A stretch of 22,879 nt of DNA, taken from positions 1 through 22,879 of the forward strand of contig NJBP01000035.1 of NCBI GenBank assembly GCA_005223085.1. Reading direction: 5' to 3'. Below the pieces are notes generated by a model. The model was given only the letters and a program-made list of their open reading frames with translations. It had not been told where the DNA came from and ran no database searches. Below, in pieces: positions 1-21,354 of this stretch. Every line of letters begins with the position of its first letter. The stretch's first letter is position 1. The translations under genes were made by a program, and so were the position numbers. The stretch comes from Candidatus Aerophobetes bacterium Ae_b3b (GTDB taxonomy: Bacteria > Aerophobota > Aerophobia > Aerophobales > AE-B3A).

Positions 1-107
1 ACAGATGGGTCGCCGAAGTCCCGGGGGGAAATTAGTATTCAGGAGATTTATACACGTATCGAGGGACTTTCCCCGCAGGAGCCTTATATCAGCCACCTTA
101 ACGAGTC

Positions 108-184
108 AGCTCTGCAGGCTTTGAATTTAGGGGGAGCAGTGAATAGCGATGAGTTGAGGGGGAATATTTTCCCCCTCAAGGATA
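108..184 (+). repeat. 75-base hairpin module, copy 1
   Basis: This is extra sequence relative to the short RNA element at 3160-3346, where the flanks join directly. It starts shortly after an ACGAG motif with AGCTCTGC, continues through a T-rich and then G-rich stretch ending in GGGGGAGCAG, and closes with a perfect 11-bp hairpin (154-164 with 169-179, TATT loop). A second, diverged copy lies at 248-316. Confidence 0.6.
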
Positions 185-247
185 GTTGAGGAAAAGAAAG
201 ACGTGATGTCTGAGGAGCGGCCGTAAGGTGCCGCAGGCAGCGACGAG

Positions 248-316
248 CTCTGCCTGTTTTTGAATTTTGGGGGGAGCAGCGTAGCGTCGAGGGGGGATGT
301 TTCCTCCCTCGAGATC
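248..316 (+). repeat. 75-base hairpin module, copy 2
   Basis: Diverged copy of the module at 108-184, again placed directly after an ACGAG motif. Its 11-bp hairpin (287-297 with 302-312, TGTT loop) differs from copy 1 at three pairs. Two changes are compensatory (T-A to C-G and A-T to G-C) and one is G-C to G-U. Conservation of pairing but not of sequence suggests selection on a folded RNA. Confidence 0.6.
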
Positions 317-457
317 CTCATGTCTTTCCCGAGACGAGATAGACGAGCAGAAACAATCCAAAGTCGATATACAGCGACGGAGGGGAAGAGTCCCGAGATA
401 CTCTTGAGGCAAAGTTAGTGCATCTTTAAGCATCTTGATTTTCAGGGGTTTTGACGC

Positions 458-3096: not shown

Positions 3097-3159
3097 TTTT
3101 ACTGATATCAATTTCTTGATAGTACCAGGAAAATAATTAGTATTAGAAGATTTATACGC

Positions 3160-3346
3160 GTATCGAGGGACTTTCCCCGGAGGAGCCTTATATCAGCCAC
3201 CTTAACGAGTCTTGGAGTTGAGGAAGAAGAAAGACGTGCTGTCTGAGGAGCGAAGCGACGAGTTTCACGTCTTTCCCGAGACGAGAAGACGAGCAGAAAG
3301 AATTCAAAGTCGATATACAGCGACGAAGGGGAAGATTCCCGAGATA
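3160..3346 (+). ncRNA. Candidate structured RNA, compact copy
   Basis: Paralogue of 56-401 lying between purA and the clpC promoter. The terminal helix pairs 3161-3164 with 3343-3346, has tandem G-A pairs (3165-3166 with 3341-3342), then 3167-3170 with 3337-3340 and 3171-3178 with 3328-3334. A 9-bp hairpin stem joins 3230-3238 to 3266-3274 (perfect Watson-Crick, where the other copy has a wobble), and a short hairpin joins 3309-3312 to 3321-3324. Similarity with the other copy starts further upstream, near 3136, with ATTAGTATT and a GA-rich run. A 70-codon open frame crosses it, but its reading is explained by the repeat. No poly-T terminator follows; the clpC promoter begins five bases after the helix. 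Confidence 0.55.
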
Positions 3347-3350
3347 ATTG

Positions 3351-3378
3351 TTGACAAGAGCCATATTTGTGCTATAGT
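3351..3378 (+). promoter_or_regulatory. clpC promoter
   Basis: TTGACA at 3351-3356 and TATAGT at 3373-3378 are separated by 16 bases. They match the sigma-70 consensus well and lie about 40 bases upstream of the clpC start. I see no CtsR-type or CIRCE-type operator (the GTCAAA repeats or the long inverted repeat) around it. Confidence 0.75.
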
Positions 3379-18306: not shown

Positions 18307-19374
18307 ATGTCTGGAAAGTCCTTCCCCGAAAAGAAGGTCTATTTCTTGGGTGCAGGTGCTTCGAATGCTTCTGACTTTACGCTCCCACTAATGAAGGGAT
18401 TCTTCCAAGAAACAAACCTCTTTTCGGAAGAGTACCGCGAGCTTTGTGAGTTCATTGTCAGGAACTTTCCTCAAACCCTCCGGAAAAAGATCAATATAGA
18501 AGACACAAACCTAGAGGATATCAAATCAGAAGACGTAAATCTAATAGATATGAATTTAGAGCATGTTATTACCTATCTGGAACTGAGCATAGACAGATTC
18601 GGTTCATTCGGAAAACGTCCTGATGGTCCTCTCTTTGATGCTCGGAAACAGTTCAGCCAACTCGTCAAAAAGCGACTAGATTACCCACCTAAAGATGATA
18701 GATTGTGGTGCAAAAAGTTCAAACGTATTCTTCGGGACCTGAATGAGCATAGGGAGGACACTGTTATTACCTTGAATTATGATCTTGTCGTAGAAAACAC
18801 GCTAAAGGAGATTTGGGCGAATGGCGAACACCCATTATACGAAACAATGTGTCATATATTGACGGAAGCCCCAGTTTTCAGTCTTGGACGCCTCAGAAAG
18901 GACTGGTGGAATGGTTTGTATCTGAAGCTTCATGGTTCCATAGAGTGGTATCAATGTCCTTACGACGATTGTCCCAATCGCCCGACGCTAGAAATTCCTG
19001 ATCGGTGGAGGGCAGATAAACCAAAGATGTGCGGTATTTGCGGCGCCACTCTTGAACCAGCAATTGTTCCGCCTACGATGAGTAAAGCTTTCGATAGGTG
19101 GCCTAGGTTAGGGCTTGTGTGGCGATTGGCTAGGGAAGAACTCACGGCAGCAACTACTGTAGTATTTATAGGTGTCTCTTTCGCTTCGTCGGATTACTAT
19201 CTCCGTTGGTTGCTAAAATCATCGTTCCTTAATCCAAACAGTAGCAAAAAGTCTGTAGTGGTCGTTGATAAATGTCCATCGGTTAAGTGCAAAATAAGGG
19301 AAATGGTTGGTATAGACCCGACATATTACCCTAATATCGATACCTATATTAGTGAAGAAATAGATAATAGATGA
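18307..19374 (+). CDS. SIR2-like (SIR2_2) putative NADase
   Basis: The protein has the nucleotide-binding signature of SIR2-like enzymes: VYFLGAGASNAS with GAGAS at 15-19, TLNYD with Asn157 and Asp159, and LKLHGS with His209, the Asn/His pair that acts in NAD cleavage in characterised immune SIR2 domains. A putative zinc knuckle sits between them and the last strands (Cys217, Cys222, Cys242, Cys245), and VVFIGVSFASSDYY (285-298) is the late Rossmann strand. Bacterial SIR2 domains of this type deplete NAD during phage infection (Thoeris, DSR and similar systems); here that role is inferred. No second effector or sensor domain is fused, so a separate sensor would be needed. An acidic segment at 64-86 looks like an internal duplication. 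ATG 18307 follows AGGGAGT by about ten bases. The stop overlaps a small ORF (ATGA). Confidence 0.85.
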   Translation: MSGKSFPEKKVYFLGAGASNASDFTLPLMKGFFQETNLFSEEYRELCEFIVRNFPQTLRKKINIEDTNLEDIKSEDVNLIDMNLEHVITYLELSIDRFGSFGKRPDGPLFDARKQFSQLVKKRLDYPPKDDRLWCKKFKRILRDLNEHREDTVITLNYDLVVENTLKEIWANGEHPLYETMCHILTEAPVFSLGRLRKDWWNGLYLKLHGSIEWYQCPYDDCPNRPTLEIPDRWRADKPKMCGICGATLEPAIVPPTMSKAFDRWPRLGLVWRLAREELTAATTVVFIGVSFASSDYYLRWLLKSSFLNPNSSKKSVVVVDKCPSVKCKIREMVGIDPTYYPNIDTYISEEIDNR

Positions 19375-19962: not shown

Positions 19963-21354
19963 TTACTTTTTTCTCATTATTGGTAGAAAGCTTTTGATTT
20001 CTGATGGGCCAAAGCCCAATTCCGCTAGTAGACAGATTTCTAGCAATATTCTCAATTGTTGAGTGAGGAGAAAGAGGTTGTTTCCAACGGCAACAGTTTC
20101 CTTTCGTTCTTTTAGACGATGAACATAATAATTCCTGGTATCAACAGCAGTATTGGTAAAACTTTTTTTACCTTCTATGAGCTCAGTGAACACGACTCTG
20201 TGTGCCTCAATAATTTCTTTTAATCTTGACCTCAAGGATACTTCATACCCAAATTCTATTCTGCTTTTGAGGCTATCTTTAAATGGTCCCTTTACCACGT
20301 CTGGAATTGCTGCTACCAGAGCACCACGTATTTTTTTATAGTCTGCGACTCCTAAATATTCTCCGCAGTAGGTACGCCGATGATACGATTCTAGGGCATG
20401 TATTGCGTTGAGAAACTTATTTTCGAGACTCATGAAGGGACTATATAGGCTTTCAGAATACATATCATATACGGGTTCCAATAAATCAATCTTCTCGAAC
20501 CAATTTTTCAAAAAGCCCTCAAATTTACCAGAAATATTCTTAAATGTAAAAACCATATCAGGCACAGGCAACCTTTCGGGTACTTTGGGAATATCTCTAA
20601 GTCCGTGGTATATTTCAACCGGCGGATAATAATCTTCGCCTTTCCTTTTTTCCTTGTTTGATTCCGTTAATCCTTTGATAGTCAACGGATAAACCGGCTC
20701 CATAACCCATAGGCTTAGGGATTTTTGTATCTGATGCACAATTCCAAAGAATTCATCGTAAGATTTTTCCTCTGAAGCCTCTATTGTTATATATGTTCTT
20801 TCTTTGACACTTATACCCTTCTTTATGGTAGAAAACGTTCTATCAATAGTCTCAAAATCTATGGATACCTTATAGTTCTCACCAATATTCGCGCAAATGG
20901 ATTCGGGTTTGCTATATTTTATCACTATTTCTTTTCCATCAAGAGAAGGCTGTATATTAAGTCCATGAATATTGACCCACTCATCCAGATACGAATAGTG
21001 AATAGATAATTTCCTGAATCTGATATCCTCTTTTTCCTTAAAATGCACACCAATGAAAGCATCATAAATGTTGAATAAAGAAGTAGAAGCTGATTGGCCC
21101 AAAGAACTTGAGTTCGATTTGATTCGACGGCATTTGTACAGAGTAACATTTTTCCCTACTGATTTCCCTAATGAAACGTGACCCAATATGATTTCTGGGT
21201 CAGGAGCCCCATACGCATCCTCTATTTTCTGAAAAGAGCCCTTTAGGTCCAAAACTGTTCCTTCGTTCGGGTCAAAACGTAGCGTTCCCGGGAACTGCTC
21301 TTTATCCTTATCGGGAAGCCACCACATACCGCTGTATTCGAATCGTTCAATCAT
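19963..21354 (-). CDS. apeA: ApeA-type HEPN anti-phage protein
   Basis: At 463 residues this has the two-part build of ApeA: an N-terminal beta-rich ApeA domain opening with GMWWLPD...FPGTLRF...GTVLDLKGSF (about 1-290) and a C-terminal helical HEPN domain (about 300-455). The HEPN domain contains AIHALESYHRRTY and the RNase motif R-x4-H as Arg407 to His412 (RNYYVH), so the catalytic residues are intact. ApeA is reported as a single-gene abortive-infection defence, with HEPN ribonuclease activity as the likely toxic step; RNA target and trigger are not known from sequence. ATG 21354 has AGGAGG six bases upstream. It is convergent with the SIR2-like cluster and bracketed by repeats A and B. The family call rests on my recognition of the two domains. 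Confidence 0.8.
   Translation of the reverse strand: MIERFEYSGMWWLPDKDKEQFPGTLRFDPNEGTVLDLKGSFQKIEDAYGAPDPEIILGHVSLGKSVGKNVTLYKCRRIKSNSSSLGQSASTSLFNIYDAFIGVHFKEKEDIRFRKLSIHYSYLDEWVNIHGLNIQPSLDGKEIVIKYSKPESICANIGENYKVSIDFETIDRTFSTIKKGISVKERTYITIEASEEKSYDEFFGIVHQIQKSLSLWVMEPVYPLTIKGLTESNKEKRKGEDYYPPVEIYHGLRDIPKVPERLPVPDMVFTFKNISGKFEGFLKNWFEKIDLLEPVYDMYSESLYSPFMSLENKFLNAIHALESYHRRTYCGEYLGVADYKKIRGALVAAIPDVVKGPFKDSLKSRIEFGYEVSLRSRLKEIIEAHRVVFTELIEGKKSFTNTAVDTRNYYVHRLKERKETVAVGNNLFLLTQQLRILLEICLLAELGFGPSEIKSFLPIMRKK

Follow-up and report, generated by a model that had tools for sequence, protein, structure and literature searches.

The enterobacterial repeats ERIC/IRU, RU-1 and RU-2 are small, dispersed and mostly intergenic; their ends pair into one long stem-loop, and they were found through filled and empty sites (PMC2229807). 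In Neisseria, the Correia/NEMIS repeats lie directly upstream of genes and vary between long and short versions (PMC2229807, PMC10969869). REP sequences and BIMEs are dispersed and folded, and RAYT (Y1) transposases are thought to move them in trans in single-stranded form (PMC2817692); ISDra2, of the IS200/IS605 family, uses a short fixed target, TTGAT (PMC2806898). ERIC, Correia, RUP and REP are the nearest kinds to the element described here (PMC2229807, PMC10969869, PMC2817692).

The sequences upstream of dnaB and clpC in a 22,879-nucleotide stretch of DNA from Candidatus Aerophobetes bacterium Ae_b3b (the window) are copies of a small mobile DNA repeat with a conserved hairpin fold, which tends to insert directly 5' of gene promoters. 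This repeat, restricted to a single order of Candidatus Aerophobetes, is a selfish family and not a switch for dnaB and clpC. We consider it highly probable that both regions represent a mobile structured element, a judgement that does not extend to the class of enzyme that moves it. A literature search on such repeats in Aerophobetes found no paper describing the element.

Results

A first-pass annotation, made from the sequence alone, had proposed the regions 56-401 and 3160-3346 as two copies of a + strand structured RNA of no recognised class. Their homology was confirmed by alignment: the terminal and central blocks were identical, with an E of about 3e-28 for each of the end blocks, far beyond chance, and the dnaB copy contained extra sequence. 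The proposed borders were too narrow, as the empty clpC site of a same-genus genome (G001, ~90% identical in the flanks to the window's own genome, G000) placed the limits of that copy further out. The left border of the dnaB copy is approximate, since this copy sits at the contig end. The element typically measures ~235 bp, and ranges from ~60 to 400 bp. Its left terminus, TTGATAGTACC, is common to many copies and probably belongs to the element rather than to the host flank. The coordinates of all features are given in Table 1.

Table 1. Positions in the window of the two element copies, their helices and the adjoining clpC promoter
Feature	Position	Strand	Evidence
clpC copy, whole (~235 bp)	3116..3350	+	Empty site in G001 (L111): ATTTCTTGACAAGAGCC; same-genome copies
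dnaB copy, long form	11..403	+	Aligned to clpC copy; G001 empty (L137)
Left terminus	3116..3126	+	Common to many copies
Outer helix P1, 5' arm, tandem G-A	3161..3178	+	Covariation; G-A columns nearly invariant
Outer helix P1, 3' arm	3328..3346	+	Covariation; G-A columns nearly invariant
Helix P3, TATATC / GATATA	3189..3194 / 3312-3317	+	
Helix P4, GTCTT / AAGAC	3209..3213 / 3286-3290	+	
Helix P5, clpC copy, AAAGACGTG / CACGTCTTT	3230..3238 / 3266-3274	+	
Terminal hairpin P6 (TGAGGAGCGAAGCGACGAG), tandem G-A pairs	3244..3262	+	
Helix P5, dnaB copy, AAAGACGTG / CATGTCTTT, one G-U	197..205 / 319-327	+	Fold
Extra nested hairpin, dnaB copy (TTGAGGGGGAATATTTTCCCCCTCAA)	154..179	+	Same module in other copies
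Second extra nested hairpin, dnaB copy (TCGAGGGGGGATGTTTCCTCCCTCGAG)	287..313	+	Same module in other copies
Native clpC promoter, directly 3' of element	3351..3378	+	Same promoter without element in G001
clpC promoter boxes, -35 TTGACA / -10 TATAGT	3351-3356 / 3373-3378	+	

In the right part of the window, a gene for a SIR2-like protein (18307-19374, + strand) lies close to one for an ApeA-like HEPN protein (19963-21354, - strand; PADLOC PDC-S58, Cas13-ApeA models), and this pair is possibly a defence island.

The family was not limited to two copies, as had been supposed. In the window's own genome, 52 pieces matched, and about a dozen of these were nearly complete copies with 86-100% identity. 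When the genome and its relatives were searched with a covariance model, as the annotation had suggested, further copies were found: the element was present in 15 of the 17 genomes of the order, with 42 hits in G002 and 26 in G000, which holds at least that number of copies. By sequence search, it was detected in 13 genomes out of 61, all belonging to the window's order, and in none of the 44 genomes outside it. According to the named records, the group is Candidatus Aerophobetes; some of its genomes are deposited as 'Clostridia bacterium' assemblies from metagenomes. The nearest neighbour of a copy came from the same genus in 47 out of 54 cases and from the same genome in 32, a pattern that points to amplification lineage by lineage. 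A phage, plasmid or viral origin was rejected, as the viral contigs, phages and plasmids searched gave no match. A known RNA family was also rejected: Rfam gave no hit at curated or permissive thresholds, with no score above the curated gathering threshold.

In both copies, a helix with tandem G-A pairs joins the far ends (TATC-GA-GGGA / TCCC-GA-GATA), and stem P5 inside the element is kept in the dnaB copy by means of one G-U pair, both as first noticed. The shortest copies (e.g. L034 and L036) consist of a bare ~60 bp hairpin (TATCGAGGGACTTTCCCGAGATA), and longer forms, up to ~400 bp, have more GA-rich hairpins nested in the loop. Across 55 distinct sequences in a model-fitted alignment, two-sided changes were observed in 34 of the 47 pairs, amounting to 307 cells versus 107 in shuffled and 34-60 in slid controls. 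Because this alignment had been fitted to the model, covariation was retested on a plain MAFFT alignment, which gave 24 pairs and 101 cells (versus 32 shuffled and 20-32 slid). The base pairs thus covary beyond the controls, as expected of a structured RNA. In P5, seven of the nine pairs exhibited two-sided changes and 98.9% of cells were paired. The central stem varied by genome, with the forms GACGTG/CACGTC, GACTTG/CAAGTC, GATTTA/TAAATC, AACACA/TGTGTT and GAGGTG/CACCTC.

Several features distinguish the two strands. G-T and A-C cells numbered 88 and 72, respectively, over all pairs, and 87 and 32 once one mostly-A-C pair was set aside, counts taken from a fitted alignment that itself leans to the + strand. 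The tandem G-A pairs, which would be T-C mismatches on the - strand, are nearly invariant. Folded as RNA, the clpC copy reached -61.5 kcal/mol (z -2.2) on the + strand and -50.5 kcal/mol (z -0.6) on the - strand; the longer dnaB copy folds well as either strand because of its added hairpins. With DNA energy parameters, no significant fold was obtained for the + or the - strand. From the wobble polarity, the conserved tandem G-A pairs and the better + strand folding, we conclude that selection acts on the + strand to form a single long hairpin, irregular and with tandem G-A pairs. The working form of the element may be RNA or single-stranded DNA.

Nearly the whole of G001 was compared site by site with G000. 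At the clpC locus, G001 is empty, reading ATTTCTTGACAAGAGCCATATTTGTGCTATAGT, and the window is filled, reading ATTTCTTGA[TAGTACC...CCCGAGATAATTG]TTGACAAGAGCCATATTTGTGCTATAGT. The dnaB site is likewise empty in G001, as are L004, L011, L012, L016, L019 and L032; three other sites (L002, L036 and L040) had right-side support. The reverse case, filled in G001 and empty in G000, was observed at L253 and L151. Altogether, about ten loci showed a clean empty site in this comparison. The element thus appears to be mobile, its positions differing between close relatives, as judged from genomes 10% apart. Four loci (L007, L037, L041 and L046) were filled in both genomes with different interiors, and the interiors therefore turn over. 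The presence of remnants or other forms of the element in other genera, at sites that are empty in close relatives, suggests repeated independent insertion at these sites.

In many G001 copies, illustrated by L188, L244, L253, L259 and L265, the interior was swapped for another palindromic repeat (GTGAATAGTGAATAG...GATTCACGAAATACGATTCACC) and the outer helix was kept. The remnants or other forms of the element in other genera were observed at the same promoters or in the same upstream regions, namely at clpC in G004 (L121), at a clpB/clpC paralogue in G009 (L126) and at dnaB in G002 (L143).

Insertion is precise beside TTGA(C), and leaves TTGAC intact. Among the 55 distinct right ends of G000 and G001, 32 adjoin TTGAC (expectation ~1%) and 37 adjoin TTGA. 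In empty alleles, a native promoter often uses the TTGAC target as its -35 box, for example at clpC, where the element lies directly 5' of this box and so outside the transcript of the adjoining promoter. This is a clear natural example in which insertion and target have the -35 hexamer in common, so that the promoter boxes stay intact. A match of at least 5/6 to TATAAT at a spacing of 16-18 was found in 17 of the 55 right flanks (31%). A good -10 box accompanied 8.8% of all TTGAC sites in G001 and 28% of the intergenic ones. As the rate in the right flanks is close to that of intergenic TTGAC sites (p = 0.75), active promoter targeting was rejected, and the promoter association is largely explained by the choice of TTGAC together with survival in intergenic DNA; in TTGAC-flanked copies alone, the -10 excess was marginal (15 out of 32, p = 0.04). 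Orientation matched that of the downstream gene in 36 of the 44 copies with a callable gene, the gene calls being crude (longest ORFs).

TTGA is present on both flanks at clpC, L011, L016 and L253, which resembles a 4-bp target duplication. Three sites disagree with this. At L004, the native site is TTGG, which the right flank keeps, and the left end is TTGA; at L019, the right flank retains the native TTGA and the left end is TTTA; at L032, the left end is again TTTA, and L019 and L032 have TTTATAGCAC in common. These left tetranucleotides, read against the 10% diverged G001, point tentatively to an element-borne left end with no target duplication.

Discussion

The element is multicopy, lacks coding capacity and shows filled and empty sites between relatives, as do non-autonomous mobile repeats in the broad sense. 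Most likely, it is such a repeat, moved in trans by a putative transposase that reads the folded strand. Like the HUH/Y1 enzymes of IS200/IS605 and REP elements, this transposase would recognise the folded single strand and join it to TTGA(C) targets. Copies would then persist mainly since landing just upstream of a -35 box keeps the promoter usable. Among the draft genomes, no autonomous copy and no copy with a transposase gene was found.

That an IS200/IS605-type (Y1, HUH) transposase moves the element as single-stranded DNA is a possible account that we hold only tentatively. It would fit the fixed short target, the strand-specific fold and the hints at L004, L019 and L032 that no target is duplicated, and Y1 or TnpB genes are present in several of the order's genomes, G000 among them. 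However, the ends of the element pair together instead of forming two separate end hairpins, no Y1 domain was found in eight element-bearing draft genomes (G001, G003-G008 and G010), and in G000 the one small Y1 gene that was checked (L280) has a different repeat on its flanks. Y1 domains were detected in 7 of the 17 order genomes, TnpB in 6 and RVT_1 in 4, none of which tracks the element, in drafts of 59-93% completeness where the absence of a domain is weak evidence. With similar reserve, HUH/Y1 chemistry may be taken as the most fitting precedent for the mobilising enzyme.

The L280 gene (1402-1920, contig C37 of G000) encodes a small, RAYT-like Y1 transposase and lies between ribA/B- and ribH-like genes. 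The dispersed repeat flanking it, GGTAGCCGC...GCGACTACC, resembles a REP family and occurs inside or beside element copies as well (L038 and L044). As this repeat differs from the element, a REP/RAYT assignment was rejected; the element was not found at the Y1 loci fetched, L280 included. Five TnpB-type (PF07282) matches were observed in G000 (contigs C67, C14, C24, C29 and C50) and none was detected in G001. An IS605/TnpB omega-RNA was rejected: TnpB is present in G000, yet the element also occurs in relatives without detected TnpB or Y1 TnpA.

We regard as unlikely, on balance, a classical DDE-type MITE with terminal inverted repeats and a 4-bp TTGA target duplication. The arms of P1 form an inverted repeat, and the four sites with TTGA on both sides agree with a duplication, but the arms are not terminal, with ~45 bp before the left arm and ~4 after the right. 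Moreover, the four letters at the left end depart from the native target at L004, L019 and L032, those at the right match it at L004 and L019, and the tandem G-A pairs are conserved despite breaking the palindromy of the duplex. Nor were ends common with a transposase-bearing element, as in canonical MITEs, found in the draft genome.

A new class of mobile element, whose whole body would work as a folded RNA or a folded single strand of DNA, joined at -35 boxes by a novel enzyme and spread over promoters throughout the order, seems to us improbable.

Very little likelihood attaches to a cis-regulatory or trans-acting class of structured RNA controlling dnaB, clpC and other genes. Strong covariation, + strand folding and the 36 of 44 copies co-oriented with the downstream gene would all suit it. 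Set against these are the clean empty sites within the genus, with most relatives lacking the element at clpC or dnaB; the element's location 5' of the -35 box, which leaves it out of the adjoining promoter's transcript; and the high similarity of copies within a genome, before unrelated genes. The annotated + strand RNA thus finds support as a covarying + strand structure, but not as a two-copy RNA bound to these two genes. Covariation usually counts as proof of a functional RNA class; here it is strong in a mobile repeat with empty sites, and the family is a useful warning for RNA discovery.

Spread by a reverse transcriptase via an RNA copy, which a + strand folded over the whole body might suggest, was rejected as hardly credible, with RVT_1 absent from G000, G001, G002 and most other copy-rich genomes, no A-tail and no intron-like ends.

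As a non-autonomous mobile repeat, the element is similar to ERIC/IRU, RU-1 and RU-2 in its small size, its dispersal and the pairing of its 5' and 3' ends into one stem-loop. It differs from them in sequence and phylum, and also in its TTGAC target, internal module turnover, tandem G-A pairs and strong cross-genus covariation. With Correia/NEMIS, it shares the position upstream of genes and the long and short forms; Correia repeats, however, carry their own promoters, whereas this element lies against a -35 box that the host already had. It is dispersed and folded, as are REP/BIME, but has no GTAG-type head and is not beside a RAYT gene. The short fixed target is a likeness to IS200/IS605, and recognition of a folded single strand, a feature of that family, would be another; the differences are the lack of an internal transposase gene, a target that is mostly TTGAC, and ends that pair together. 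The element fits neither the canonical MITE nor the REP/RAYT definition. Small size, dispersal, pairing of one end with the other and absence of coding capacity are features it has in common with ERIC, Correia, RUP and REP. Compared with ERIC, Correia, RUP and REP, it is without a known partner enzyme and is distinguished by its own target, by inverted repeats that are internal rather than terminal, and by a multi-helix, covarying body that contains tandem G-A pairs.
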